From Blepharisma japonicum (taxonomy: Eukaryota > Ciliophora > Heterotrichea > Heterotrichida > Blepharismidae), in assembly GCA_949751835.1 (NCBI GenBank), contig CATKHK010000041.1:186001-250000 (forward strand): a stretch of DNA of 64,000 bases. Reading direction: 5' to 3'. Numbering within the stretch: position 1 is the first letter of the stretch; the number at the start of each line of letters is the position of its first letter. The notes beneath the pieces were generated by a model. It did not search any database, was not told the origin of the DNA, and saw only the letters and a list, made by a program, of their open reading frames with translations. This document shows, one piece after another, positions 4,608 through 58,400 of the stretch. The position numbers and the translations under genes are program-made.

Positions 4608-5562
4608 TTACCAATCTATAAAAGGATCATATTCTGTAGCTATAGCTGGAGCCAAAGTATCTGAATCTGGATACGACCCAACATTTATATTTTCTGTAGG
4701 ATCTCTGAGCACAGGAATATACGGCATTCTTATTCTTTTATGATATAAAAGATTTCAATCAATTTCTTCAAATCATGCATGACTTTTTATATCATTTATC
4801 TTATACCTTTTTGCTGTATCTGAAGTCACCAAATGTTTTACTAAATTTTTAGCTCTCGGATTGAAGTTTTTTGGGTACCGGATTTTTCCTTTAAGGATTT
4901 TCCTATAGATTTTTGATGGGTCTGTTGTATTGAATGGATCAACCCCAGCAAGTAGTTCAAATATAAGAACTCCAATCGTCCACCAATCAACACCTTGGTC
5001 ATGGCCTTTATTTAATATAACTTCTGGAGCTAAATATTCAGGTGTCCCACAGAGGGTGTAAGTCCTTTCCTCAATTACTTTAGCAAATCCAAAATCTGTT
5101 AATCTTAAATAGCCATCTGCATCAATTAAGATATTTTCTGGCTTAAGATCTCTATAAACAATGTTGTTTTGGTGCAAATATTGCAAAGCCAAAATCATTT
5201 GTGCTGCATATATACAAGCATGGGTATTTTCGAGTTTTCCAATAGTTCTCAGATACTTAAAAAGATCTCCACCTGGGATGAATTCTAAAACAAAATATAA
5301 ATATCGGGTGTCTTGATTAAATCCTTTGAAGTTTATTATAAACGGATGACTAACTCTTTTTAAGATCGTAAATTCCGAGACGATATGTTCTACTTCTTTT
5401 TTTTGTAATATAGTTGCTTTTTTAATAACCTTCACAGCTACGTACTCACCAATCGATTTCATAAAGCCTAACCTTACTCTGCCATAAGCGCCTAAATTGA
5501 TGGATACCTTTACCTAAAGTATGGAGAATATCTATGTCACTCAAGCTGACTTTGTATTCCAT
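4608..5562 (-). CDS. cAMP-dependent protein kinase (PKA)-like catalytic subunit
   Basis: A compact AGC kinase of 312 residues after removal of a 16-nt intron at 5492-5507. The intron splits the glycine-rich loop; splicing restores GKGAYGRV at residues 17-24. The ATP-binding Lys is K39 (VAVK), the catalytic loop is YRDLKPEN (131-138), DFG is near 151, and the activation loop RTYTLCGTPEYLAPE carries the PKA-type phosphorylatable Thr. The C-terminal tail has the PKA signature H-x-W-F-x-x-I-x-W, in which both Trp codons are TGA, and ends YDPFIDW. It most likely phosphorylates Ser/Thr downstream of cAMP; the name is from family resemblance. An in-frame TAA four codons before the ATG fixes the start. 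It is divergent from the V-ATPase gene. Confidence 0.93.
5492..5507 (-). other. 16-nt intron in the PKA-like gene
   Basis: On the coding strand it reads GTATCCATCAATTTAG. Unspliced, the frame is lost inside the glycine-rich loop; removing exactly these bases gives GKGAYGRV. Confidence 0.9.
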
Positions 5563-5940
5563 TATTAATTGTTAAAAAATCTCTAGGAGTGCATAAATGC
5601 TAGAAATATTTGCATTTTCTAAGATATAAATACTTTAGGAATTTAGAAAGTCTATAATGGGATAGAGGTAGAAGTGAATCTTTTTCCTTTTTTAAAGCCT
5701 TAAAAATATTATATAATAAAAACTAAAATTAAAATGCCTAATAAAAATTTAAAAATAATTATCAGATAGCCTCATTAGTTTAGAATTGATCTTTATAAAT
5801 AATTATTTATTTATTCCATTAAATTTATCGGAAAAAATAATTAAAAATCGTATTTTAATCTTGTCTTGAAATCTCTTAGATCATTCCTTTACGCAAAAAT
5901 ACTTTTATATTATTTAATCATCATTGGCTAAATAAGTAAT
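5563..5940. promoter_or_regulatory. divergent promoter region, kinase / V-ATPase d
   Basis: A 378-nt AT-rich spacer between two divergent genes, so it must hold both promoters and 5' leaders. No specific motif could be identified. Confidence 0.4.
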
Positions 5941-7116
5941 ATGGAACTCCTTACATTCAACGTCGATGATGGGTATGCCGAAGCTTTAATTCGTGGCATG
6001 AGAATGTCCTTTATCAGAAAAGAAGAATACGACGCCCTCAAAGATTGTGCCTCACTAGGAGATGCCAAAATGCTTCTTGAAGAGACTGACTATTTACCCT
6101 TCCTCCAAAACGAGCCAAGCCCATGCCAACCTAATGTAATTAGAGCTCGTATGAAAGAAAAGCTTGCAAAAGAATTTGAGCACATGAAATCCAATGCGGC
6201 CCCACAGCTTTTCAATTTCTTAGAAAAAGTCTCCCACAAATACATGATAGATAATGTTGTCAACATGATTGAAATTATCAAAAACAAAGATATTAACAGA
6301 AAAAGGCAAGCACAGCCAGACCCTCTAGGGTATTTTAGAGGTATTGAAGGGATTTTGAGATTTGAAAGCGACGATATTGCTGAACTTTACCAAATTGTGC
6401 TAATTGATACACCAGTAGGAGATTATTTCCAAAGACTGCTTGAAGATATAATTAAAGCTGGGGCAATGCAAAATAGAAGCATAGAAGATGTCCACAGGCA
6501 GCTTGCCGATATTACTCCTGAAGTGTTAAGAATTTCTTTAAAGAAAATGTGGCTTGAAGATTTATTTGATCTCGCCAAACAATTAAACGGGATTTCCAAA
6601 GAAATTTTAGAAGACTTGATAAAATTCGAAGCTGACTGCATGACAATCCAAATCATTTATAACTCAATCAGCAACGAAGAACTAAACAAGCCAGCTGCTA
6701 GAGAAACTGACAGAAAAGCTCTATGCCCTAATGTAGGTTATCTATATCCAGAATATGAAGCCCAGCTATCAAGAGCTTTTGATATTACAACACTGAGAGC
6801 GGCTGTAGAAAGTTTCCCACTTTATATAGAGATGTTGAGAAATGTGGCAGACCCTGCTAATGAAGAAGAAATGAATGACCCTTCAAGAAAAACATTGGAC
6901 GATATTATGTATGAGATTGGAATTAAGAAATATAGCTTGGCCTTTGACCAGCAGTTCCATTATGGATGCTTTTATGCATATTTAAAGCTGAAAGAACAAG
7001 AAATTAGAAATACTGTTTGGCTTTGTGAAATGGTCAGCATGCAGTTGAATAGGCAAGATAAAGCCTGGACGAAGTATGAGAAGCTCATTCCTTTTAGTTG
7101 TTTAAGAGAGCCATAA
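5941..7116 (+). CDS. V-type ATPase subunit d (V0 sector)
   Basis: 391 residues, intronless, matching the vATP-synthase AC39/subunit d family, usually about 350 residues. It sits on the cytosolic face of the V0 ring and couples it to the V1 central stalk for proton pumping into vacuoles. Family features visible are the N-terminal FNVDDGYAEALIRGMR, the central PLGYFRGIEGI, the LIDTPVGDYFQ segment, and the C-terminal region ending WTKYEKLIPF. Extra residues compared with yeast or animal proteins lie mainly in the first half and near residues 225-265. The start is the first ATG, directly after an A/T-rich leader. It stops at TAA. Confidence 0.93.
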   Translation: MELLTFNVDDGYAEALIRGMRMSFIRKEEYDALKDCASLGDAKMLLEETDYLPFLQNEPSPCQPNVIRARMKEKLAKEFEHMKSNAAPQLFNFLEKVSHKYMIDNVVNMIEIIKNKDINRKRQAQPDPLGYFRGIEGILRFESDDIAELYQIVLIDTPVGDYFQRLLEDIIKAGAMQNRSIEDVHRQLADITPEVLRISLKKMWLEDLFDLAKQLNGISKEILEDLIKFEADCMTIQIIYNSISNEELNKPAARETDRKALCPNVGYLYPEYEAQLSRAFDITTLRAAVESFPLYIEMLRNVADPANEEEMNDPSRKTLDDIMYEIGIKKYSLAFDQQFHYGCFYAYLKLKEQEIRNTVWLCEMVSMQLNRQDKAWTKYEKLIPFSCLREP

Positions 7117-7385
7117 GTAGTAGCAATTAAATATCTTTAATCATAAGAAGGATTGATAATAAGATATATAAAATTTTTATGTGAAATTATATTAAAATCC
7201 AAAAAAAAAGATAATGCTGGTGTGGTAAAAATAAAATATGCTATAAATTTGCATAATTTATATAATATTCCAAAAATAAGATAAAGTTATTCATACCCAG
7301 GTAAGCTTTAAAGCCTTTTTTTATATAGCATATATTAGTTCAAGCCAAAATTTTGATTTCCATATTGGATATTTATAAAATAAAA

Positions 7386-7910
7386 ATGATCACAAAAGTA
7401 AAGCCTATCCTTTCAAATATCGAAGAACTCACACATTCAATTGAACAGCTCTCCACAGAAGAACTACCACGTAGCAGGCCAATAAAAAGCAGATTACTCA
7501 ACAGAGCAAACTGAAATGAATTCATCAACTATTTTCCGAGCAGTCACAATTCTTCACCTCGGTTAAAAAGAGCCAATGAGCCTAAAGGCTTCGAATGAGA
7601 TGGCACGAAATCACAGTCATCCTCTCAAGCATTTTGGGCATGGTCTTGTGGATCTAGTTTAGGAAAAGGAGATTCTAATATAGGGAAAGTAGATGATTTA
7701 AATTACATTGTGGAAAGAATGGGGGATAAAATGACCAGTTTGCTTAGCCGTCAGCATAAATTACTTTCACTAGTGATGGACGCTGAAACCATCGGAGAAG
7801 ACTATCAAGTTGATGACTTGTGCGTTCTTATGGAGCTCTGTGGAAATAACTCAGAACTTCATCTAGAAAACAAAAGATTGAAAAGACGTTTGGCTTCAAT
7901 GAAAAGCTAA
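7386..7910 (+). CDS. tandem-family protein 1 (unknown function)
   Basis: 174 residues with two TGA codons read as Trp (residues 43 and 71), without which the gene appears broken. I do not recognise a known domain. The first 100 residues look disordered and Ser-rich. Residues 106-132 carry the motif shared with the next three genes: a Met-rich helix followed by a basic-hydrophobic stretch (RQHKLLSLVMD). A Lys/Arg-rich tail ends the protein. It is the first of five similar-sized genes on the same strand, each with its own long AT-rich upstream region. The motif could form a helical interaction module; that is a guess. Confidence 0.75.
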
Positions 7911-8664
7911 GCTGTAAATATTAAATAATGTAAATATTGTGATGTAAAATGAATTTAAAACATCATAGCAAAATCTGGATCTTTAAATAACTACCATTTT
8001 GAACTGTAACTCAGGACACAAAAAAAATTTTGAGAGTCCAAAAGGAACTCATTGAGCGAATTTAACACTGAAAAATGGATTTTCAGCACGATAGTAAAAA
8101 ATATTTTCTTATATTTTCTAAGTGAGTGCTCTTAAATTATTTGCAAAGATAAATACAAATAGCCTTTAAATAATAGATCAATAGTTAGATGTATAAAAAT
8201 TTTAATATTCTAAAAGTTTTTAATTTCAAATACCCCCCAAAATTACAGCATCGGATTATTTTTTGACTAATAAGCATGCTTCTAAATTTAAATCATTTTA
8301 AAAATTGAAGATAATTTAGTAAAATTACTCTTAAAAAGAATCAAAAATATTTTTTAAAGTAAAATTAAGACATCAAATATCACAATATGGCATTAAAATT
8401 AATATTTGATGAGAAATTAATTTAATCAAAAAAAAAGTGAGTAATCTACTTCCACTTCCTTATAAGTTCGAAATGACTAAAAGTTTTACTACTGCATCAA
8501 ATTCATATTATTGAACTTAAATTCTAATTTTTGCATTTCTTAGAGCAGTTTTCTTATTCGGTGAATTTTAACAAATGATCATTATTTAAATTTTTATGAA
8601 AGCATATTATCGTTTGCTACCATATTTGAAACATTTTTAATACTGGCAGGCTTACAACTTTAGG
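7911..8664. other. spacer between tandem-family genes 1 and 2
   Basis: About 750 nt, very AT-rich, with no supported gene or clear remnant of another family copy. It presumably contains the 3' end of gene 1 and the promoter of gene 2. Confidence 0.4.
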
Positions 8665-9165
8665 ATGGCTCAAATTGCAATTTCTTCAATCTCAAGCTTC
8701 AAAAACTTACATTCAATTTTAAAGAAGTCTAAAACCTTGGCTCTTAAGAGCTATTTTGATGACCCAGAGGCCAAAAAGAACGAAAACAGTGATGGGAAAG
8801 ACACCTATTCTAGAACATCATTAATTTTACCTATTACAAGACAATCAAAAAGACATGTTTCCTTCAAAGACCTTGAAAGTAAAAATGAAAAATTTTCATG
8901 CAAGTACCTAAGAGATTCTCATAACGAATGCTATAGAACTGATATAGATTTTTTGTTTAAAAAGATGAATTCAGAAATGTCATTAATGTTTGACCGTCAA
9001 CGAGAAGTGCTTTCAGTCATAATTGATGATAGTGGCATTAATAAGCTCCACAATCTGAATGATTTTAATGAATTGGTTGACTCTTATGCTATAAAAAAGC
9101 CGTTAGAAATAAAAAAAAATATCAAAACAGATTTTTCAAACTTTGGAGCTGAGAATGATCATTAA
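8665..9165 (+). CDS. tandem-family protein 2 (unknown function)
   Basis: 166 residues, no TGA. Residues 95-122 hold the shared motif (DFLFKKMNSEMSLMFDRQRE then VLSVIID). It also shares two further short stretches with protein 4 of the array: an N-terminal LHSILKK (residues 15-21) and a central KRHVSFKDL (62-70), so these two are the closest pair. LHSIL also recurs in protein 5. The rest is Lys/Ser-rich and probably disordered. No catalytic motif, membrane segment or signal peptide is visible. The ATG is the first in the frame. Confidence 0.78.
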   Translation: MAQIAISSISSFKNLHSILKKSKTLALKSYFDDPEAKKNENSDGKDTYSRTSLILPITRQSKRHVSFKDLESKNEKFSCKYLRDSHNECYRTDIDFLFKKMNSEMSLMFDRQREVLSVIIDDSGINKLHNLNDFNELVDSYAIKKPLEIKKNIKTDFSNFGAENDH

Positions 9166-9562
9166 GAAAATTGATATACAAAGGGCATGGATAAATAAAC
9201 ATAATAGATTTAATTAGTTTGTAGCAAACTATTTGTTTGCATAATCTAAAGCAGTTTATATTTGGCTGTACTTGGAAAAACTTGAATTCTTACTATATGA
9301 AATGGAGGGTAAATTCAAGTTAATTTGCTAAAATTATTTCCTTAAAGCTTTAATTGTTTTCATGTTGCCATCTTCTTTCCTATATTAAAAATTATCTTAT
9401 TTAGATTAATATAACTATCTTTGGTATCTAAATTTCCTTTTTTCTGCAATACTTACTACTATCCCAAAAAAACAGAATAATTATTTTAAATTTGAATTCT
9501 GATCGAATCTCTCCATTTTCTTCCTCAATTTTTTACTATAAATCACCCAACAATATCACATT
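9166..9562. other. spacer between tandem-family genes 2 and 3
   Basis: About 400 nt, AT-rich, no gene seen. The last 80 nt before the next ATG are pyrimidine-rich on the plus strand. Confidence 0.4.
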
Positions 9563-10057
9563 ATGAAAAGAATGCATCCACTTATCTGCAACCTTGAAGA
9601 TTACACTCAATGTTTAGAAAAACTCTATAACCCAGATGTGTTAAAGCACAAGTCTAATTATAGTGATCTTCAAGAAAATTTTTTAGATATCATGAATTCC
9701 TCTTATCCTTATGATTTTGAAAAATCCCCGCAATTACCGAGAAATTTCATTTCTCAAGAAAATCATTTTCGCTCTAGAGCGATTTTTTCTTTTTCAGCAA
9801 AAGCTAGAGAAGAAAGAGCAAGAAGGATGGGAAAAGATAAAAAAGGGAATTTAAACTTCATTGTGCAGAAAATGAATGAAGAATTGTCTTTTATGCTGAG
9901 TAACCATAGAGAAGTTCTTTCGTTACTTATAGATTCGCAGTCGTCTATAGAAAATTTTAAAAATCATGATACAGGTTTACAATTGTATAGGAATAATTCA
10001 AAAAATATTGCAAGAAGAAATGAAATGACAAAGCATTTCGCTTCAGTACTGATCTAA
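9563..10057 (+). CDS. tandem-family protein 3 (unknown function)
   Basis: 164 residues, no intron, no TGA. The shared motif lies at residues 98-124 (NFIVQKMNEELSFML, then HREVLSLLID). A basic segment precedes it (AKAREERARRMGKDKKG, 80-95). The N-terminal half differs from the other members and lacks the LHSIL and VSFKDL stretches, so only the C-terminal motif unites the family. Function not recognised. It has its own upstream spacer, so co-transcription with its neighbours is unlikely. Confidence 0.77.
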   Translation: MKRMHPLICNLEDYTQCLEKLYNPDVLKHKSNYSDLQENFLDIMNSSYPYDFEKSPQLPRNFISQENHFRSRAIFSFSAKAREERARRMGKDKKGNLNFIVQKMNEELSFMLSNHREVLSLLIDSQSSIENFKNHDTGLQLYRNNSKNIARRNEMTKHFASVLI

Positions 10058-10878
10058 AGTATATAAATTATAATTAGTAACATTAATTTATATAAATTAA
10101 AGAGCGAATTTTATGTGATTTTGTAATGATTGTAATAAAACCGTCAATAATAGTAAGGAGTCGTTGAAAATCCAGGTGCTATTATATTGAACTGAAAAGA
10201 ATTATTCGGCACTTCTGCAAATTTTTCAACTAATTATACTAGCTGTGTAAAATATTGATCACTAATGGAATTGTATTGAAGATTTCAACTGTCGATGCAA
10301 TTCAATAATTTTGGCGATTTAATAAACTGATCAGTAATTAAGCCATAATAAAGTGTAAAAATGGATGAGGTTATGCATTCACTGATTTATATAAATTCAA
10401 AACAACTTTAAGCAAGTTGCTTAATATTATTAAGAGATGTTATTTTCATAAAAAAGAGCAACAGCCTCAAGTTCTAGTGACAATTTATGGTATTTTTAAG
10501 TTAAGCACAATTTAGAGTTTACATTTTTGCAAATAAAAAAAAATCAAAAAACCATGTCTGGCCAGTGTTTCAGTATTCAATATTTTACTTTAATATAATC
10601 TTTAAGTGAAGAACTAATTACAATTACACTCCTAAAAAATTATCTCTTTTGTGAATAGTCAACTCAAATTGGCTAATTTGACATTAAAGTATTTGCCAGA
10701 TGTTTTTATGTCAAAAACAATTATATAAGAGCATCACTCTCCATTTCATGGGTATTTTATATATATCTATAAAGAGTCTATTCAAAAATTTTGATACTCT
10801 TAAAACTACTCATTAAATTTTTAATTCTTTTTCATATAAACCATATTTTCGTGTTCTGAAGTGGCTAATATAAAAAAT
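10058..10878. other. spacer between tandem-family genes 3 and 4
   Basis: About 820 nt without a supported gene. Slightly richer in G+C around 10140-10380 than other spacers, but all frames are interrupted and nothing is recognisable. Confidence 0.4.
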
Positions 10879-11346
10879 ATGACACAAATTTTAAAATCAT
10901 CTCTTGGAGTGCAATCACTTGACTCAATCCTTAAAAAGTGCAACTCATTCCCAGTCGAAGATTTCACTAATAGTGATATCATGAGAACTCAAAAAAGAAT
11001 TGCAAGTCTCTCTGGAGTGATTAAAGAAAAAAAAGTCATTCAGCCTAAAAAACAAGTCACTTTCAAAGACTTAGTTGATAAAAAGCGTGTAAATTGTAAT
11101 AATATATGTAAAAAAACTTTTGTAAATAGCTACAGCGATGTATTTCAAGAAGTGAACTCTAAAATGTCTGCTATGTTGGGGAGCCAGCGGGATTTTTTGT
11201 ATCAAGCTATGGAAGGAAACGATAATAACAGAAATAGCTTCGGAGGCTTAAAATGCCAAATTGTATCTAATGAACTTAATTTGAAAGGAAAAATTTTAGA
11301 GCAGCACTTAGGAAGATTTAAAATTCAACGATTAATAGTAAATTAA
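10879..11346 (+). CDS. tandem-family protein 4 (unknown function)
   Basis: 155 residues from the first in-frame ATG at 10879. The frame is open a little further upstream but only a GTG at 10861 is available there, so the ATG is preferred. It shares LDSILKKC (residues 14-21) and KKQVTFKDL (57-65) with protein 2, and a weaker version of the C-terminal motif at 86-112 (DVFQEVNSKMSAML, then QRDFLYQAM). Function unknown. It is the most divergent of the first four copies in the C-terminal motif. Confidence 0.75.
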   Translation: MTQILKSSLGVQSLDSILKKCNSFPVEDFTNSDIMRTQKRIASLSGVIKEKKVIQPKKQVTFKDLVDKKRVNCNNICKKTFVNSYSDVFQEVNSKMSAMLGSQRDFLYQAMEGNDNNRNSFGGLKCQIVSNELNLKGKILEQHLGRFKIQRLIVN

Positions 11347-11589
11347 AAATTTTGTTAATATCAAATAAAGTGTAACAGCTAAAAAAACTTCTAGTGGTTT
11401 GTCAGAAGATGCTTTATACTGGCCCAATGATTTAAATTTAAATATTACAGAATATTTAATTAAATAATGATTTGTATTTAATGTTTAGTATGTAAATTTG
11501 AATATTTTCAATTTTGAATCAAGAACTTTTATATCTTTAAATATAAGCGTAACGATTAATCTTATTATTTTGCTCTTGATTATTAAAAT

Positions 11590-12282
11590 ATGGTATCAAT
11601 TGAAATCTCAGCTGACCAAGAATCAAAATTGCATTCAATACTTGATAAAGGCTTAGAAATTTTCAATTTGAAGTCAGAGCTTTATTCACCTAGCAAATCA
11701 GCCTCAAATACTATCACAAGTAATCAATCAATTTCAATCTCTGAAGCAACCTTCAAAAATGAGTTAGAAAAACTTCAAGAAAAAATCCATTCACTCGAAC
11801 AAAAGTTAAAACCTACTAAAAGCATACAAAATACTCCAAGATTCAAAAAAACCCTTAAAAAATCCAAATCCAAAGTTGAGTTTGAAGATCCTTATGATTT
11901 CTATTACAAAAAGCCAAAAACTCCTAAAAAATCCAGAAAGCCGAAAAAAAGTTTAAATCGAATATTTAATGAGCTTACAGAAGAATTAAATTATGAAATT
12001 GAATCAAATGAAAAATTACGAAAATCAAACTTAAAGCTAAAGAATGAAATTATTTCGCGCAAAAATCTACAACCTAGGCTAAGAACTCTAAAAGAAGATT
12101 TTGAGCTGCTTACTCAATCATATGAGCGCTCAGAAGAAATTAGGAAGAAACAAAAAGCAATAATTGAAGATTTAAAGCAGCAGCTTCCGTCTATATCTCC
12201 GTCTATTTCAGAGTACTCCAAAACCTCTCCAATAGTAAAACAAAAACAAGGAAGAATTTCGAAACTAACAATCAAACAATAA
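11590..12282 (+). CDS. coiled-coil protein, probable fifth member of the tandem family
   Basis: 230 residues. The N-terminus has LHSILDKG (residues 14-21), like proteins 2 and 4. Near residues 124-146, LNRIFNELTEELNYEIESNE lines up with the shared motif (compare LNFIVQKMNEELSFML in protein 3). The remainder is predicted coiled coil (about 55-77 and 125-200) with a Lys-rich linker. So it may be a longer paralogue at the end of the array, or an unrelated coiled-coil gene with chance similarity. Its stop lies 9 nt from the stop of the convergent next gene. Confidence 0.72.
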   Translation: MVSIEISADQESKLHSILDKGLEIFNLKSELYSPSKSASNTITSNQSISISEATFKNELEKLQEKIHSLEQKLKPTKSIQNTPRFKKTLKKSKSKVEFEDPYDFYYKKPKTPKKSRKPKKSLNRIFNELTEELNYEIESNEKLRKSNLKLKNEIISRKNLQPRLRTLKEDFELLTQSYERSEEIRKKQKAIIEDLKQQLPSISPSISEYSKTSPIVKQKQGRISKLTIKQ

Positions 12283-12291
12283 ATTTTAAGA

Positions 12292-12693
12292 TTAACTTGT
12301 ATTATGCTTTTCAGAGACGTGGGTTTTTGCCTGACCTTTTATTAGTCCCCCTTCGTTGCACACATCACAAATAAATGTTTCTTTTTGTGGATTTTCCAAT
12401 CTGAAGAAAATTGTGTTCCCAGTAACTTTGTTTTCCACACTCAGTCTGCTTGCTTGGTTTTTGCTGTTTTCATATAAGATTAAATCAGGCTCTGGCATTA
12501 TTCCTTGGTTTTGATCGTAAACTCTTTTCAAACGCACTAAAAATTCAGCTGACTGTTTTGAGTTCAGGCCAAGCTCGTCACACAGAGAAAGGGAGTCTTT
12601 GGCAATGAGTAGTAAAGCGTCTAAGTCGCAGCCGAGTTCTTCAAGCTTGCTGAGTTTTTCGATGTCTTGATCAATGATATAGCTTAAATCCAT
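12292..12693 (-). CDS. small protein with a C-terminal C2H2-like zinc site
   Basis: 133 residues. The only recognisable element is a C-terminal zinc-finger-like pattern: C109, C112, H125, H130, with 13 residues in the middle. The N-terminal 65 residues are acidic and helical (LSKLEELGCDLDALLLIAKD). No known family recognised. The ATG at 12693 is the first in the frame. It is convergent with the preceding coiled-coil gene, whose stop is only 9 nt away, so their 3' ends must overlap. Confidence 0.7.
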   Translation of the reverse strand: MDLSYIIDQDIEKLSKLEELGCDLDALLLIAKDSLSLCDELGLNSKQSAEFLVRLKRVYDQNQGIMPEPDLILYENSKNQASRLSVENKVTGNTIFFRLENPQKETFICDVCNEGGLIKGQAKTHVSEKHNTS

Positions 12694-13036
12694 TTTTTAA
12701 ATTATAAGAGCATGGGGGATCTTGAATACTCGTATTTAGCTAAAATTATTCATGCTATTTCTATTTGCTAGAAAATATCATTTTAGTAAAGATTTTAATT
12801 TAATTCATTTTGCAAAGAATTTTAGTTTAAGAACTTTTATTTCCAATAAACATGATAAAATTATTGATTTTATTTTCTAAAATAATAATGGGTGATAATA
12901 TTTTTTACAAAAATAGCCTGGATGATAATATTAAATAAAATCAATAACTTTTTAAATAACAATTTTATCTTCTCTCATTTTATTTGGCGTAATCCTCTTT
13001 ATTCATTCAAAAGTAATCTGATACACAATATTTAAA
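12694..13036. promoter_or_regulatory. divergent promoter region
   Basis: 343 nt of AT-rich sequence between two divergent genes. No specific motif found. Confidence 0.35.
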
Positions 13037-14044
13037 ATGGGAAATGACTGCCGCAGACCAAACAAAATTTATTCACCCAAAAAAGTTCAGCTTTTAATAA
13101 GAGACGAAACTTTCAGCCTTCCAATCATACCCCAATCTTACGATCTCCTTGAGCAAAACGTTGAAATGGTAGCAAAGTATATGTATTCTAATCCAGATCC
13201 CCTGGACTACTACCATATGTCTTTTATAAACTCCAAAAATGGAGCCCAACAGCAGCTTACTGACAGCAAAACTTATTACTCAGCATTTCGAAACTGACAC
13301 GAAAAAGTTTTACAAATCCGAGTCGACAAAGATTCTTATAAATGCATGTTCGCCTTAAATCCAAGTGAGTCAGGGCTCCCAAACCTTGACGAAACAATAG
13401 TAGCTTTAGTTGACCATTTACGAAATATTGAAGGGAATATTATATCTCTACTTGAAGGATATAATAATCTGCTGAAATTTGCAGAAAAGTTTAGTGCTTA
13501 TACTAAATGTCCTTGCATAAAAGTTGTTATAACCACGCTCATATTAATCGTATCAAGCTCGCCGAACGCAAAAACTGCAATGGTTTTCCTCAGCTCTTTT
13601 CCATATATTGACTTCAATTTAGACCTTCTAGAAAATGAAGCTTTAGAAGGAGCGAAATATTGAAATGAATTTTCTTTATGCTTACAAAGAGCAATCCCAC
13701 AAATGCTAGTATTGAAAAAGGCACTGGCTGACGCACAAGTAGGCTTAAAACAGCACAGTATGTCAAATGGTCATACAATTAAAAAAAGCAACAATTTTTT
13801 ATTGGAGGCTGAAACCTTTTCAAAAGCCCTCACTGCTGGGTTCAATTTTGTAAGAAAAATTAAGAACCTTCACAAGAACGTTGCAGAAATGGTAGAAAAC
13901 TTAGCAAAACCTGAGCAGGAAAACACAATTAGAGGTATCCAAAATATCATTGGACTTTCAGGCTCTACTGACCCAGCCTCAGCATTAAGGCTATTTGCCC
14001 TTCGCCCAAGTGTGAAATTATCAAATATTAAGCAAGCCATATAA
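13037..14044 (+). CDS. unknown protein, potentially N-acylated
   Basis: 335 residues, continuous only with two TGA codons read as Trp (13295 and 13661). It starts MGNDC, a plausible N-myristoylation/palmitoylation signal. I do not recognise a domain. The first 100 residues may be a small globular fold (VQLLIRDETFSLPIIPQSYD); the middle contains a hydrophobic helix with Cys (CPCIKVVITTLILIVSS, about 157-173), and the rest looks helical. No transmembrane topology is convincing. Its stop lies 15 nt from that of the convergent zinc-binding gene. Confidence 0.75.
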
Positions 14045-14059
14045 TATAATTTAGCATAA

Positions 14060-14560
14060 TTAATTGGCTCTTAGATATGGATTTGAGTACATAGCCCCGC
14101 AATAGCATCGTATTGAGATAGCATCTATTGGGAAATAACTTACTCTTCGGCAATATGTACACATCATTGCATTCATTTGCTTAATTGCAGTCAAATTCAA
14201 GCATCTTGGGCATGATACAAAACAAACCTCATGTGAACATTGTAGCATTAAACTACAGACTGAACATTTAACTAGTTTTAAATTGTTAGAATATTGAGGT
14301 GGAATTTGTGGAGTGGGTGGCGAAATATTGGGACTCGGGGATGGAGGATTAGGCTGAGCTCGTGGAGTTGGTGTTGGGATATTAGGAGTCGAAGGCAAAT
14401 TATTAGGTCGTTGTTCTGGAGGAGAGTTAAGAAGAGGATCTTGGAATTTGAATTCTTCTATTTGTTCAGGAAACTCAGGCTCGTTTTGATAAGATCTTCT
14501 TGAGACAGGCTTCATCTCTACATCTGCAGGCTTTTTTTGAGACATCTTGTCTATCACCAT
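14060..14560 (-). CDS. proline-rich protein with LSD1-like zinc ribbons
   Basis: 166 residues. Residues 44-88 are a Pro/Asn/Ser-rich linker. The C-terminal 70 residues carry CxxC-type clusters: C99/C102 with C117/C120, then C134/C137 with C152/C154. The spacing and the pattern CSVCSLML..C..C resemble LSD1-type zinc fingers, known in plant and protist cell-death and membrane-associated proteins; this match is from memory of the family and is tentative. Two start choices exist (14560 or 14545, MSQKK). Function otherwise unknown. Confidence 0.7.
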   Translation of the reverse strand: MVIDKMSQKKPADVEMKPVSRRSYQNEPEFPEQIEEFKFQDPLLNSPPEQRPNNLPSTPNIPTPTPRAQPNPPSPSPNISPPTPQIPPQYSNNLKLVKCSVCSLMLQCSHEVCFVSCPRCLNLTAIKQMNAMMCTYCRRVSYFPIDAISIRCYCGAMYSNPYLRAN

Positions 14561-29631: not shown

Positions 29632-31692
29632 TTATATGCTGTCTGAGTTCCACCCTAAATAATTTTTACATTCTTTAAGAATTTTGCTTGCTAATTTATA
29701 GTCGAAATTTGTACACACTTCAAATTCATTAGCTTCCTTTGGGCACTCCTTTAATATTTTTTCTGCCCATCAATATTTATTGACCCCAAACAGTCTTATA
29801 CACAAGTTCCTTTTTGCCCAATCATGGCTAATTATTTCTTTAATCTCATTTTGATTATCAGACTGTAAAAAGATCTTAACTTTTTCAATCATAGCGTTTG
29901 TAAAGTTAACAGACAAGCTTTCCAGTTTTTCTTGGAGTTCTCTTTGTTTCTACCTCAAAATTACCTGCTGTAGCTTGAGCTTTCTTTTTTCAGCTAAGGA
30001 TTCCCCTTTTGCCGATTTTGGGATGTTGTCGGACCACTCTAATAAATCCTTGGAAACAAGCTTTAGGTTTATAATTACATCAACCATTTCGTTTACAAGG
30101 TTTGGGTTGTTTTTGAGCTTTATTTTCAGCTGCCTTGATTTTCTTTTCATTAGCCTTTTTATTTTTGCTTTTTGAGTTGGGTCATTTTTTTTGAAATATT
30201 TTAAAGGCCCCATAGATACAGTAGTGAAAATAGCACCTTGCTTTATTTCTTGTTTTTCGATATTCACAATATTTGTTTCTGCTTTTACCATTATTTTTTC
30301 GACTGGCTTAATAGGCTCAATTGGGATGATTGACTCTTGAAATACCTCTTCCTCAATACTTGACTTAATTCTCTCTCTTTCGCACTCATCTCTGACAGAT
30401 AAAAATAAATTTTCTATTTCCTTTTCAAGCTTATCTTCTTCTGGCCTAAGCTCTTCTTTAATTTCTTTATTAGACTCTGATGCTAACTGTTTGACTTTTG
30501 CATTTTGATTTGAGTCATTGCTTTCAGAATATTTTAAAGGTCTCATAATTCTTTGAGTAAAATTGGCACCTTGCTTTTCAGTTATCACAATATTTGTTTC
30601 TGCTTTTACCATTATTTTTTGAGCGGGCTTAATAGACTCAATTTCAACTCTTTCTCTTTCACGCTCATATCTGACAGATAAAAATAAATTTTCTATTTCT
30701 TTTTCAAGCTTGTCTACTTCTGGTGGATCCTCTTTTATTTCTTCATTAGGCTCCGGTATCTCTGATTTTTTAATTGGGATATCTTTTTCGAAATATTTTT
30801 CAGAAAAAATAACGCTTTTCTTTATTTCTTGTTTTTCAGTACTTAAAATATTTGTTTCTGCTTTTACCATTATTTTATCGACCTGCTTAATAGGCTCACT
30901 ATCAACTCTAGATTCTTTATATAAGTCTTTCTCAATCCTTGGCTGAGAATTTCCTTTTTCACACTCATCTCTGACGGATAAAACTAAATTTTCTATATTT
31001 TTTTCAAGTTTATCTCCTTCTAACTGAAGCTCTTCTTTTATTCCTTCATTAGACTCTTTTATCGGTTTTTTTATTTTTGCTATTTGATTTGGGTCATCTT
31101 TTTTGAAATATTTTGAAGGTCCCATGGCTCTTGTAGTAAAAATAACACCTTGTTTTATTTCTTGTTTTTCAGTATTCACAACATTTGTTTTTGTTTTTAC
31201 CATTGCTTTTTCTACTGGCTTAATAGGCTCAATTTCAACTATAGGCTCTTTATATAAATCTTCTTTGATACTTGATTGAACTATTTCTTTGTCACACTCA
31301 TCTCTTGTAGATAAATCTTTTATATTTTTTTCAATCTTCTCTGCTTCTTCTTTTGTTTTTTGATTTGAGTTATCTTTTTTGAAATATTTTGAAGGGCCCA
31401 TCGCTCTTGTAGTAAAAATAACACCTTGCTTTATTTCTTGTTTTTCAGTATTCACAATATTTGTTTTTGCCTTTACCATTATTTTGTCGACCTGCTTGAT
31501 AGGCTCACATTCAACAATTGGCTCTTTATATAAATCATCTTTAATACTTGGTTGAAATCTTTCTTTATTACATTCATCTCTGACAGATAAAAATAAATTT
31601 TCTATTTCTTTTTCAAGTTTATCTACTTCTGGTTGAAGCTCCTCTTTTATTTCTTCATTAGACTCTGATGATGTTCTTAACAAAATGCTCAT
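29632..31692 (-). CDS. protein with five long internal repeats and a unique C-terminal domain
   Basis: 681 residues after removal of a 15-nt intron (29950-29964). Residues about 15-530 are five imperfect repeats of about 85-115 residues. Each contains a helix like KLEKEIENLFLSVRDEC, then EPIKPVEKIMVKAETNIV, EKQEIKQG and usually IFTTRAMGPSKYFKKD. Repeats 3 and 4 are the most degraded. The unique C-terminal 100 residues, partly encoded by exon 2, look globular and Trp/Cys-containing (HDWAKRNLCIRLFGV, KYWWAEKILKECP). No family recognised. The repeated K-P-x-E-K-x-M-V-K core suggests a multivalent binding protein. One Trp in exon 2 is TGA. Confidence 0.82.
29950..29964 (-). other. 15-nt intron
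   Basis: Coding-strand sequence GTAATTTTGAGGTAG. Unspliced it ends the protein at an in-frame TAG; spliced, the frame runs on for 105 residues. Confidence 0.85.
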
Positions 31693-31845
31693 ATATATTT
31701 AAAAATTACAAATTATTTAATTATCAGAAGGTGTAAGATTCCCTCAAGAAAAACATTATAAAGATTGCTTTATTTTAACAATATTTAAATAATAAAAGAG
31801 AAAAAGATTATTAAAAGCTAGAAAAGATTTTGATAAACTCATTAT

Positions 31846-50902: not shown

Positions 50903-53798
50903 TTAAATATCATTTGGAGGTCTATATGCAGGATCATAATTAGTAGGGCTTTGATATGAATAATAAGGCTGATTATATCTTGGGTCATTTTGAAATCCTG
51001 GATTGCCTTGCGGATATTGAGGCTGAGGAGGCATCATTGATGGAAGCTGTTGAGGAATACTCATTTGATTTTTTACTGGGTATTGATAGCCTGGACAAGC
51101 TTGTGGATATGTTTGATATACTGGAGGAACTTGATACTGAACTGGGTTTGGCTGGCTTCCTTGAGGAACTTGGTACTGAATTGGGTTTGGCTGATTTCCT
51201 TGGAATTGAATTTGGTTAGGATCCACATACTTATTTGAAACTAAAACTCCTCCATGAGTCTTCTGAGATGACAATAACCTTGTAAACTGTGTTGCAATAG
51301 GCTGAGTGCCATTTTCTAATCCGGGGATTGCATGTTTAAGTCCATACGCCATATTACAATTTCTATACATTTCATCTGGATTTCCTCTATTTTGTCCAAT
51401 ATTATTTCCTAAGAGAACATTGACAAAAGCAATACACGGTGCTCTTCTTACAACATAATTATCAAAAGTGTCTAAATTAATTCGATCCGTAGCATTTGTT
51501 TTTTCTTTATTTTCTATTTTCATTTTATCATTCCACTTTCTCCACCCTTCATCATGAGTGATTGGGTTTTCTCTTTCATAGTCCTGCTTTATTCTTACAG
51601 TGTAAAATAAAGGGAGCTGCACAAAATAGTCATTTTTTGGATCATTTTCTTTTAAAATCCTTCTAAGTGCTGATTTTGAGTCGTATTTGCAGATTATATG
51701 GCCTATAGCTTTTAGAGGTAAAATTATATAGAGGCATGCAATTGCAATTAACAATTTTGCAGGATCGCTATTTGAGTCAGAGAAGTTATAATAAAATATT
51801 ATAACTCCAAGCTACATAAGTATTACAGCATGAGAAAAAGCTATCCACTTCAGTCATTCATTCATTTCAAATGCTAATTCAGCATTTTGCTCTTTTGGCC
51901 GTGCGTATTTTCTTAGCAGCATATACTTTGTCAATAAATATTCAAAAGCGATTCCAAAAAATGATATAGGAATTCCAATTGGAATTAATGGAGCATAGAA
52001 AAAGGTAACAATTAGTGTTTTTATTACATTTGCATATATTTCTGCCAAATCTATTTCTGGGCGTTGATATAAAATATTGGCATCTTGTTGGCTCATCTTA
52101 AGCTTGCCGTTTTCCATTGATCTTTTGGCAAAAAATCTTCTTATTACATTCAAGCAATATATTAGGCTAAACGCGTTTATAATAGGTGCCAAGCAAGCGT
52201 TAACAATCAAAATATAAGTCATCTGAGTCGCCAGTCCACCTGGGATAAACCATCTTTCTGCATGCTCACTAGTCAAAATGATCGGAATGAGGCCAGTATT
52301 AATTGACATTGACAAAATAAGCATATCAGCAACACTTACATTAAAAAGAGTCCAAGTCTGATGTGATTCATGGGCTGAAAAAATCCTTATCAATATACCT
52401 AATACAAAGTTAATAAAAACTACCAGTAATGAAAGAAAAACTGATGCAGTTTTGGTGTCAATACTGGAGTGTTCTGAATCTTTTTGGTCATCGTATATAC
52501 TTTGTTGGTAATTATTAATAAAATATATTGTAATAAAGGTTACAAAAAATGCAATTGCGCTGATAATCCATATTTGGAATCTTTTTATTATTCTATCAGA
52601 AAGGGTTATCGATAAGTTTTCCCAGAGTATGTCGGTTGGCTCAGGAGCTAAAGAAGCTGTTAAATAGCAGCCTTTGAATTTAGTTATATGATTGAACCGA
52701 AAACAATTTAAAAATCTATCAAATAGCTGTTGGAGATTTGAGCGGTTTCATTTATCGTCAACATTTATTGCTTGCAGTTGAGTTCTAAAAGTAATAAAAG
52801 CGCATGGAGCAAGATTTTCAGAGTTAAGCTTACTTAAAAGCTCTTGCTGCTTTTCTGACAATTCTTGGATTTTTGTATCACAATCTTCTAAAGTTCTTGT
52901 TTCTTTCTTTATACAGCCACAACATTTTCTTTCGGGAAAAGATCCAGGGTAAAAATATTGATATTCTCTGATATAATTTTTTCTAATTTTCCACCAAACT
53001 AATTCTCTAGTTATTTCTGTAAAAAGTTTTATGTCATGAGTAAGGACAATTTTAACTATTTCAATATTTGTATTTTCATCATTGCCGTTTTTTCTAAAAT
53101 GCTCGGAAAGCTCTTCTTTTGTATATGATTTCGGAAGGCCTTTAACCCAGACTGTAAAATTGGAAGGAGTTGTTAAATCAATATCAATATCCACAGCTTT
53201 TTCTTTAGTTTTTTTATCAACCCAAAGATAATAAAGCATTAAGACACTTCCTCCTATAAGATGCAACAAAGATTGCCACATTGGAACAGCTTCCCAGTCT
53301 CCATACCCATAGGCTATGCGTTCACTATCTTTTAAGTAAGGATTTCCATAGTTTGCGGGAGTTAAAATAATAACAGTACTCGAGTCTTTTCATTGCTCAT
53401 GCTTATCAGCTGAAATATTTCCAATCAAGCAAGCAATTCCTGCAATTAAAAATAAAATTAAAACAGCTAATAATGAATATCTCAAAAATCAGAAGTATAA
53501 AGGAAAACCAGCACCAAGCTGATTTAGCTCGTTTATTTCAGTGCATAATGGAAACTTATCGCCTTCGGTTGGAAAATTGCAGCAAGGGCATCTTTCTTTG
53601 CTTTGAAAATAAGCTTCGTTAAATATGTAAACCTTATGAGCTTTCTATGTAATAACTTACTCCATGGATTTTTGAAATTTCTAAATCAGCAGGCTGTGAT
53701 AGCAAGGACCCTGCAGGCTCTATAGGAGCAGGATTTTGAGGCTGTTGAACATTATCAGGCGCTTTATGAGAATATGCTTCAAGAGATTGCTCGCTCAT
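50903..53798 (-). CDS. OSCA/TMEM63-like mechanosensitive channel, copy 1
   Basis: About 954 residues with introns of 15 nt (51812-51826) and 16 nt (53645-53660) and many TGA Trp codons. The cytosolic RRM-like domain between TM2 and TM3 is clear (FTVWVKGLPKSYTKEELSEH, then CAFITFRTQLQA), followed by APEPTDILWENL, the signature region of this family, and a multi-helix membrane domain ending TFFYAPLIPIGIPISFFG. The C-terminus is a Pro/Gln/Tyr-rich disordered tail. These proteins form stretch- or osmolarity-gated cation channels. The first in-frame ATG (53798) is 20 codons inside the region aligned with copy 2, and copy 2's start is missing, so the N-terminus is uncertain. The remaining frame is intact. 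Confidence 0.83.
51812..51826 (-). other. 15-nt intron, OSCA copy 1
   Basis: Coding strand GTAATACTTATGTAG, with in-frame TAG at its end. Removal keeps the membrane domain in frame. Confidence 0.88.
53645..53660 (-). other. 16-nt intron, OSCA copy 1
   Basis: Coding strand GTAAGTTATTACATAG. Removal joins the disordered N-terminus to the first membrane segment. Confidence 0.86.
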
Positions 53799-55446: not shown

Positions 55447-58400
55447 TTAAATATCATTTGGAGGCCTATATGCAGGATCATAATTAGTAGGGCTTTGATA
55501 TGAATAATAAGGCTGATTATATCTTGGGTCATTCTGAAATCCTGGATAGCCTTGCGGATATTGAGGCTGAGGAGGCATCATTGCTGGAGGCTGTTGAGGA
55601 ATACTCATTTGATTTTGTACTGGGTATTGATAGCCTGGATAGGCTTGTGGATATGTTTGATATACTGGAGGAACTTGATACTGAACTGGGTTTGGCTGGC
55701 TTCCTTGAGGAACTTGGTACTGAATTGGGTTTGGTTGATTTCCTTGGTATTGAATTTGATTAGGATCCACATACCTATTTGAAACTAAGACTCCTCCATC
55801 AGTCTTCTGAGGTGACAATAGCCTTGTAAACTGTGTTGCAATAGGCTGAATGCCATTTTCTAATCCAGGAATTGCATGTTTAAGTCCATGCGCCATAGTT
55901 CTATAATTTTCATCTGGATTTCCTCTATTTTCTCCAATATTATTTCCTAGGAGAACATTGGCAAAAGCAATGCACGGTGCCCTTCTTACAACATAATTAT
56001 CAAAAGTGTCTAAATTAATTCGATCCGTATTATTTGCTTTTTCTTTATTTTCTATTTTCATAAGTTCATTCCACTTTCTCCACCCTTCATCATGAGTAAT
56101 TGGGTTTTCTCTTTCATAGTCCTGCTTTATTCTTACAGTGTAAAATAAAGAGCGTTGCTCTATATAGTCATTTTTTGGGTCATTTTCTGTTAAAATTCTT
56201 CTGAGTGCTGATGTTGAGTCGTATTTGCAGATTATATGGCCTATAGCTTTTAGAGGTAAAATTATATAAAGGCATGCAATTGCAATTAACAATTTTGCAG
56301 GATCGCTATTTGAGTCAGGGAAGTTGTAATAAAATATTATAACTCCAAGCTACATAATTATTACAGCATGAGAAAAAGCTACCCACTTCAGTCATTCGTT
56401 CATTTCAAATGCCAATTCAGCATTGTGCTCTTTTGGCCGTGCGTATTTTCTTAACAGCATATACTTTGTGACTAAATATTCAAAAGTGATACCAAAAAAC
56501 GATATAGGAATTCCAATTGGAATTAATGGAGCATAGAAAAAGGTAACAATTAGTGTTTTTATTACATTTGCATATCTTACTGCCAAGTCTATTTGTGGGC
56601 CTTCATATAAAATATTGGCATCTCCTTGGCTCATTTTCAGTTTGCCTTTTTCCATTGATCTTCTAACAAAAAATCTTCTTATTACCTTCAAACAATACAT
56701 TGGGCTAATAAAGTTAATGATGGGTGCCAAGCAAGCGTTAATAATCAAAATATACGTCATCTGAGTCGCCAGTCCACCAGGAATAAACCATTTTTCTGCA
56801 TGCTCACTAGTCAAAATAATAGGAATGAGGCCAGTGTTAATTGACATCGACAAAATAAGCATATCAGCGACACTTACATTAAAAAGAGTCCAAGTCTGAT
56901 GTGATTCATAAGCTGAAAAAACTCTGATCAATCTTCCTAATACAAAGTTAATAAAAACTACTAGTAATGAAAGAAAAACTGATGCAGTTTTGGTGCCATT
57001 GCTCGAGTGATCTGAATCTTTTTGGTCATCATACATACTTTGTTGGTATTCATTAATAAAATATATTGTAATAAAAGTTACAAAAATCACAACTGCACTG
57101 ATAATCCACGTTTGTAATCTTTTTATTATTCTGTCAGAAGGAGTTCTTGATAAGTTTTCCCAGAATACGTCGGTTGGCTCAGGAGCTAAAGAAGCTGTTA
57201 AATAGCAGCCTTTGAATTTAGTTAAATGATTGCGCCGAAAACAATTTAAAAATCTATCAAATAGCTGCTGGAGGTTTGAGCGGTTTCATTTATCGTCAAC
57301 ACCTCTTGCTTGCAGCTGAGTTCTAAAAGTAATAAAAGCGCATGGAGCAAGATTTCCAGAATTAAACTTGCCTAAAAGCTCTTGCTGCTTTTCTGACAAT
57401 TCTTGGATTTTTGTATCACAATCTTCTAAAGTTATTGTTTTTTTCTTTATACAGCCACAACTTTTTCTTTCGGGAAATGATCCAGGGTAAAAATGTTGAT
57501 ATTCTCTGATATAATTTTTTCTAATTTTCCACCAGACTAATTCTCTAGTTATTTTTGTAAAAAGTTTTATGTCATGAGTCAGGACAATATTAACTATTTC
57601 AATATTTGTATTTTCATCATTGCCGTTTTTACGAAAATGCTCGGAAAGCTCTTCTTTTGTGTAGGATTTCGGAAGGCCTTTAACCCAAACTGTGAAATCG
57701 GAAGGAGTTGTTAAATCAATGTCAATATCTACAGCTTTTTCTTTAGTTTTTTTATCAACCCAAGGATAATAAATCATTAAAACAAGCCCTCCAATCAGAT
57801 GCAGCAAAGATTGCCACATTGGAACAGCTTCCCAGTCCCCATATCCATATTCTATGCGTTCACTATCACTTAAGTAAGGATTTCCATAATTTGCGGGAGT
57901 TAAAATAATAACAGTGCTGGAGTCTTTTCATTGCTCATGCTTATCAGCTGTAATATTTCCAATCAAGCAAGCAATTCCTGCAATTAAAAATAAAATTAAA
58001 ACAGCTAATAGTGAATATCTCAAAAATCAGAAGTATAAAGGAAAACCAGCGCCAAGTTGATTTAGCTTGTTTATTTCAGAGCATAATGGAAACTTATCGC
58101 CTTCGGCTGGAAAATTGCAGCAAGGGCATCTTTCTTTGCTTTTAAAATAATCTTCGTTAAATATGTAAACTTTTTGAGCGCTCTATGTAATAACTTACAC
58201 CATGGGTTTTTGAAATTTCTAAATCAGCAGGCTGTGATAGCAAGGACCCTGCAGGCTCTGCAGGAGTAGGATTTTCAGGCTGTTGGACATTATCAGGCGC
58301 TTTAGGAGGATCTACTTCAGGAGGCTGCTCAGGTATATCTTGGATTTCAGGATATCTGTTTTCTCCATTATTCGAATCAATAGGTTCAGATTCATTAGAC

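Follow-up and report, generated by a model that had tools for sequence, protein, structure and literature searches.

Four small, related and fast-evolving genes in Blepharisma japonicum that may encode phosphatase adaptors and partner proteins

Introduction

By the account in PMC10066265, the specificity of protein phosphatase 1 (PP1) is largely set by its regulatory subunits, and more than half of the regulators with an RVxF motif have a serine or threonine at the x position, where phosphorylation weakens binding; Inhibitor-2, Inhibitor-3, and DARPP-32 have no phosphorylatable residue there. KNL1 is described as having SILK and RVSF motifs near its N terminus, both of which are repressed by Aurora B (PMC6406801, PMC6715587). 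Here we describe a tandem array of five same-strand open reading frames (ORFs) from the ciliate Blepharisma japonicum, which we call g1, g2, g3, g4, and g5 in array order. They lie in a 64,000-nucleotide stretch of DNA (contig C41, positions 186001-250000), which we call the window. Four of these small genes, g1-g4, are related, and they may encode phosphatase adaptors, together with partner proteins, that are evolving fast. The literature that we covered on PP1 and RVxF motifs in ciliates and on Blepharisma protein phosphatases, which includes Paramecium in part and not Tetrahymena, describes no such regulators.

The macronuclear genome of Blepharisma stoltei is described in PMC9942806 as compact and AT-rich, with a size of 41 Mbp, introns of mostly 15-16 nucleotides (nt), and UGA as a codon for tryptophan. 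UGA is also read through as tryptophan in genes of our window, and all five ORFs reported by the first-pass annotation of this DNA were found at their reported coordinates under that code. We searched the B. japonicum genome (45.2 Mb in 224 contigs) with g1, g2, g3, g4, and g4' (a counterpart of g4, see below) as queries.

Candidate PP1 docking motifs in two of the four genes

On C41, g1-g4 alternate between two types, in the order A-B-A-B. A second cluster, on contig C28, contains counterparts of three of them, which we mark with primes: g1' is 54% identical to g1, g3' is 53% identical to g3, and g4' is 42% identical to g4. The B-type genes (g2, g4, and g4') contain both a SILK motif and a strict RVxF motif, and in our motif scan the A-type genes (g1, g1', g3, and g3') have neither. 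The features of the array are:

7386..7910, + strand: g1, A-type, 174 amino acids (aa), two UGA codons read as Trp, no PP1 docking motif, C-terminal module (ORF list, motif scan, counterpart g1')
7692..7907, + strand: C-terminal helix-zipper module of g1 (alignment A5; relatives p44 and p45, see below)
8665..9165, + strand: g2, B-type, 166 aa, SILK and strict RVxF (ORF list, motif scan)
8713..8724, + strand: SILK motif of g2, residues 17-20 (motif scan)
8848..8865, + strand: RVxF motif of g2, KRHVSF, residues 62-67 (motif scan; consensus as given in PMC4794898)
8938..9162, + strand: C-terminal module of g2 (alignment A5)
9563..10057, + strand: g3, A-type, 164 aa, without SILK or RVxF; FxxKxR (FSAKAR) is kept in g3' too (ORF list, motif scan)
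9845..10054, + strand: C-terminal module of g3 (alignment A5)
10879..11346, + strand: g4, B-type, 155 aa, SILK and strict RVxF (ORF list, motif scan)
10924..10935, + strand: SILK motif of g4, residues 16-19 (motif scan)
11047..11064, + strand: RVxF motif of g4, KKQVTF, residues 57-62 (motif scan)
11125..11343, + strand: C-terminal module of g4 (alignment A5)
11590..12282, + strand: g5, 230 aa, coiled coil, starts LHSILD, outside the array family (shuffles, genome search)

The first-pass annotation had pointed out that two of the genes share KxV[ST]FKDL and three share L[HD]SIL; the former is indeed present in g2 and g4, and the latter in g2, g4, and g5. It recognized no known motif. The L[HD]SILK and KxV[ST]FKDL sequences of g2 and g4, however, look like matches to SILK and RVxF, two established docking motifs for PP1. 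We defined SILK as [GS]IL[RK] and strict RVxF as [KR][KR][ACHKMNQRSTV]V[CHKNQRST][FW]. The latter is the consensus used for Plasmodium; according to PMC4794898, a match to the looser consensus arises by chance in roughly 25% of proteins.

SILK begins at residue 17 of g2 and at residue 16 of both g4 and g4', and strict RVxF begins at residue 62 of g2, residue 57 of g4, and residue 54 of g4' (KRHVTF). SILK is N-terminal of RVxF, which follows 41-48 residues further on in g2 and g4, and the x position is serine or threonine. When we shuffled g2, g4, and g4', SILK was followed by strict RVxF within 60 residues in 2, 10, and 3 of 200000 shuffles, respectively. We also scanned 71 ORFs, none overlapping another and each at least 120 aa long (23964 residues in total), which were taken from the window and from four other stretches (L017, L018, L019, and L021) rather than from the whole genome. 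Strict RVxF was present only in g2, g4, and g4', SILK was present in seven ORFs, and only those three had both. Both motifs are kept in g4' even at its 42% identity to g4. Among the A-type genes, FSAKAR of g3 and FSSKVR of g3' fit a weaker PP1 motif, Fxx[RK]x[RK].

PP1 and its known regulators in the genome

The genome encodes PP1 with intact docking pockets. It contains at least five STPPase_N loci, and all five read as PP1 by eye. One of these (L033) is identical to human PP1-alpha at 260 of 300 residues, including 11 of 11 positions of the RVxF pocket and 10 of 11 positions of the SILK pocket and acidic patch (E167 is replaced by D). Among the positions that we scored, PMC10066265 gives those of the acidic patch and Asn86, and the others are those that we take to line the two pockets.

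Two loci, on C19 and C22, match Inhibitor-2 (IPP-2, PF04979) above the cut-off, and one, on C43, matches Inhibitor-3 (PPI_Ypi1, PF07491). The Inhibitor-3 homologue carries RHVMF, which is close to the RHVSF of g2 and the RHVTF of g4', and KRIKW and RGIQW are present in the Inhibitor-2 frames, which lack SILK. RVxF-like motifs are thus a feature of this organism's ordinary PP1 regulators. The Inhibitor-2 frames also contain HYNE and HYHG stretches, which we take to be the Inhibitor-2 motif. None of g1-g5 matched the IPP-2 profile at E ≤ 1 or the PPI_Ypi1 profile, and with separate Inhibitor-2 and Inhibitor-3 genes elsewhere, we rejected the array genes as members of either family.

Paralogy and an older duplication

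Judging from their alignments, g1-g4 are true paralogues. The local alignment scores of g1 with g3 (120), g2 with g4 (100), g2 with g3 (81), and g1 with g2 (68) were each reached by 0 of 1000 shuffles. The score of g1 with g4 (45) was reached by 18 of 1000 shuffles, and that of g3 with g4 (43) by 66. The g1-g3 and g2-g4 pairs can be aligned along most of their length, and the g1-g2 and g2-g3 pairs through the C-terminal motif. The pairs g1 with g4 and g3 with g4 are weak on their own, but a profile of the four A-type genes matched a profile of the three B-type genes with E = 8.7e-6 (0 of 60 column shuffles). The shared motif reported by the first-pass annotation is therefore not random, and it far exceeds the shuffled controls. 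We detected no likeness between the A-type and B-type N-terminal regions (53 of 100 shuffles).

A tree of the seven genes separates the A-type from the B-type (support 100/99) and pairs g1 with g1' (89/100) and g4 with g4' (94/94). The fork of g3 and g3' is open in the tree; their alignment score is 374, as compared to 120 and 134 for g3 with g1 and g1'. The genes beside the arrays are paired between C41 and C28 as well: V-ATPase subunit d (PF01992, E = 3e-62), a kinase, a 335-aa gene, and a 166-aa gene. Because these neighboring pairs have a synonymous divergence (dS) of 1.1-2.7, the two contigs contain a duplicated block and not two alleles. The block extends over 4608-14560 of the window and corresponds to L017 and L018 on C28, with most genes kept as pairs. 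Since g1', g3', and g4' are present on C28, the array is older than the block duplication. We did not find a counterpart of g2 in the 10 kb of C28 that we searched, where g2 matched only g4' and one 13-residue stretch at E = 6.7; the latter is at chance level, and we rejected it as a relic of g2. We infer from the sequences that the A-B unit was duplicated before the block and that g2' was lost afterwards.

We estimated nonsynonymous divergence (dN) and dS by the method of Nei and Gojobori with Jukes-Cantor correction. For g1, g3, and g4 and their counterparts, dN is 0.32, 0.34, and 0.40, and dS, which is near saturation, is 1.00, 1.54, and 1.01, so that dN/dS is below 1. For the flanking genes, dN is 0.01 (V-ATPase subunit d), 0.11 (kinase), 0.16 (335-aa gene), and 0.46 (166-aa gene). 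By these measures, the array genes evolve fast under purifying selection. The local duplication with fast divergence that the first-pass annotation proposed holds up against three of the four flanking genes; the fourth is equally fast. As an aside, the two copies of V-ATPase subunit d are identical at 390 of 391 residues despite a dS of about 1.2.

The genome search gave some further matches. g3 matched C16:436033 and C16:441777 (E = 0.03-0.05), which are in or at large membrane proteins, and there were further matches on C83, C33, C92, C94, and C66 (E = 0.47-3.2). We took all of these as chance.

A C-terminal helix-zipper module

The methionine-rich motif is the start of a C-terminal helix-zipper module of about 70 residues that is present at 17 loci in the genome: the seven array genes and ten dispersed loci. 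Thus, it is not confined to the array, in which the first-pass annotation described it. The connection was made through g1, which finds C16:406391 (p44) with E = 0.0018; p44 finds g1 back (E = 0.002) as well as a close relative on C65 (p45). A search with the C-terminal 77 aa of p45 gave ten loci at E ≤ 1, including p45 and p44, and the weakest had E = 0.01. The matches did not include any of the seven array genes, so the link between the array and the dispersed loci rests on the g1-p44 matches and on profile comparisons.

A profile of p44 and p45 matched the g1 pair (E = 2.4e-4) and the g3 pair (E = 0.023), each with 0 of 60 shuffles as good. Profiles of the seven array genes and the ten dispersed loci matched with E = 1.1e-4, and they still matched if p44 and p45 were removed from the dispersed loci (E = 0.0029) or if just the first half of the module, before the zipper, was used (E = 0.0013); 0 of 60 shuffles were as good in all three cases. 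Common descent among the dispersed loci is supported by a phase-0 intron of 15 nt that seven of the ten have in one shared position, following the K of ..K|F[QS]E... The array genes do not have this intron, and neither g1-g5 nor g1', g3', and g4' hide any in-frame 15-nt intron of the intron-like form that we used (GT..AG 15-mers are present only in g1, g3, and g1').

The module is laid out as an amphipathic helix, a linker, and NxxLxxENxxL. In nine members tested, the helical moment at 100 degrees was reached by 1-159 of 2000 shuffles (g2 and p45 are the weakest). This supports the helix in the interaction helix that the first-pass annotation suggested; interaction enters below as part of our proposal.

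The first-pass annotation also knew of no family with this motif, and for the module this stands. Our Pfam-A scan of 14 module segments and of full-length g1-g4, which together include all 17 members, gave no match that reached the cut-off. The best was TSC22 with p44, at 20.3 bits as compared to a cut-off of 30, and other weak coil matches (such as IHO1 and Sec8_N) were scattered. g1-g5 had no match above the cut-off in NCBIfam. One search of PDB sequences gave nothing, and another gave only coiled coils (E = 0.09-0.48). We therefore rejected a known Pfam, NCBIfam, or PDB-sequence family for the array or the module.

p44 (C16:406373-406780) and p45 (C65:122056-122442) each adjoin a gene that is kinesin-like by eye, and their neighborhoods are perhaps another paralogous block.

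g5 and other features of the window

The first-pass annotation described g5 as coiled-coil-like, with partial similarity to the other genes. It is coiled-coil-like, but its alignment scores with g1-g4 were reached by 45-180 of 1000 shuffles, and we rejected it as a member of the array family. The only likeness to g2 and g4 is an 11-column LxSIL stretch at the start of g5 (0 of 100 shuffles). In the genome, g5 matches four other coiled-coil genes with E ≤ 2.2e-5 (C7:199211, C41:16993, C20:358244, and C56:152208), three of which begin L[HN]SILD[KR]G, and one more at E = 0.69. Its NCBIfam coil matches are all below the cut-off, with E down to 1.8e-4. g5 has a loose RVxF (KVEF) and no strict one, and among its four relatives a loose RVxF is seen only in L030, whose ORF has KIKF close to its start.

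At 7100-13000, a search for structured RNA gave no match at the gathering score. The kinase beside the array (minus strand, window position 5462 and upstream) has its 5' end broken by a tiny 16-nt intron in the glycine-rich loop, and its copy on C28 (L018:6471-7424) has a 15-nt intron at the same place, as read by eye. Far from the array, 50903-53281 and 55447-57819 (minus strand) are by eye closely similar copies of a two-gene segment, about 4.5 kb apart, each encoding a Pro/Gln-rich protein of 204-206 aa and an apparently multi-pass membrane protein of 489 aa. A repetitive charged protein of 580 aa (29950-31692, minus strand) lies opposite an open frame of 559 aa (30023-31702, plus strand), which is possibly a by-product of the codon pattern of the repeat.

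A proposed explanation and its alternatives

We think it probable, on the motif and alignment evidence, that g1-g4 are two duplicated A-B pairs in which g2 and g4 are PP1 targeting subunits, the module pairs or addresses the proteins, and g1 and g3 are PP1-null partners or competitors. The SILK and RVxF motifs of g2 and g4 would dock the catalytic subunit of PP1 through two pockets on its surface that lie apart from the active site, and the subunits would carry PP1 to a place or substrate. The serine or threonine at x would make docking switchable by phosphorylation, and given the pattern in PMC10066265, g2 and g4 resemble targeting subunits with such a switch more than they do inhibitors such as Inhibitor-2 and Inhibitor-3. 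The C-terminal module of about 70 residues might join array proteins to one another or bind them to a shared address, and g1 and g3, which have the module and no docking motifs, might then act as PP1-null partners or competitors. We are doubtful of a broader version, in which a toolkit of at least 17 genes is built on one module and A:B zipper exchange controls the place and amount of PP1 delivery, as a lineage-specific targeting system with built-in competitors.

Several observations weigh against PP1 targeting. Motifs this short point to a function without proving it: SILK alone is present in 4 of the 68 other ORFs, and in the work described in PMC10066265, removing the non-canonical SILK of Inhibitor-3 barely altered its affinity for PP1. 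LxSIL may serve a different purpose, as members of the g5 family carry L[HN]SILD at the equivalent place in their N-terminal region. Because A-type genes have the module without docking motifs, the family as a whole cannot have PP1 as its function. In the frame of the module, we saw neither SILK nor strict RVxF upstream of any of the ten dispersed copies (frames broken by introns were not joined); loose RVxF matches are RVVF in L065, KWIIF in L061, where it precedes the first Met, and KVFF in L064, where it lies within the intron. Finally, the p44/p45 profile against g2, g4, and g4' alone is not significant (E = 0.12, 4 of 60 shuffles).

One alternative is that the docking motifs are coincidental and g1-g4 are small coiled-coil scaffolds, for example of the cortex or cytoskeleton, with LxSIL coming from an N-terminal helix in common with the g5 family. 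g5 and three of its four relatives have LHSILD or LNSILD at the same position, p44 and p45 adjoin the kinesin-like genes, and the A-type members lack docking motifs. We nevertheless consider this unlikely: the g5 family has D where SILK requires K or R and a loose RVxF in only one of four relatives, and SILK and strict RVxF occur together in 3 of 3 B-type proteins and 0 of 68 other ORFs and are kept at 42% identity. If the motifs are genuine, g2 and g4 could instead be inhibitors like Inhibitor-2, which by the description in PMC10066265 has the same order of SILK, RVxF, and then a helix, which lies across the active site. This is improbable, as g2 and g4 do not match IPP-2, two Inhibitor-2 homologues are encoded elsewhere, the helix is common to A-type proteins without docking motifs, and serine or threonine at x is typical of targeting subunits and not of inhibitors (PMC10066265, as above). 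More improbable still is that g2 and g4 are reduced kinetochore receptors for PP1 like KNL1. KNL1 has C-terminal RWD domains; our Pfam scan of g1-g5 gave no match above the cut-off, a result that speaks to sequence and not to fold. The order of motifs and the serine or threonine at x are alike, and KNL1 has an N-terminal SILK and RVSF (58-61), with S25 and S60 mutated in the experiments described in PMC6715587; but g2, g4, and g4' have no MELT-like repeat and are only 146-166 aa, and their module is also in the A-type genes and at ten dispersed loci.

Comparison with known systems

If PP1 targeting by g2 and g4 is correct, then the array is a natural experiment, with docking and non-docking paralogues side by side that diverge fast while two docking motifs stay fixed. 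A further outcome is the outline of a small family of helix-zipper domains in which a tiny intron is conserved. The helix-and-zipper tail that the array genes have in common is undescribed, and the docking motifs of g2 and g4 are of an already known kind. The second half of the tail resembles the zippers of TSC22, YabA, ZapB, and bZIP proteins, as matches to these fall on NxxLxxENxxL, but they do not cover the first helix and are all below the Pfam cut-offs.

As to the docking motifs, g2 and g4 are like the N terminus of KNL1 in having SILK N-terminal of an RVxF with serine or threonine at x, and they are like Inhibitor-2 and the Plasmodium RVxF-ext proteins, as presented in PMC4794898, in having short linear docking motifs. 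They also have PP1-docking motifs in common with Inhibitor-2 and Inhibitor-3, which are encoded by separate genes in this genome and to whose families g1-g5 have no match. Unlike the known RVxF/SILK proteins, to which we found no sequence relation outside the motifs, g2 and g4 have a helix-zipper module of their own and alternate with PP1-null sister genes.

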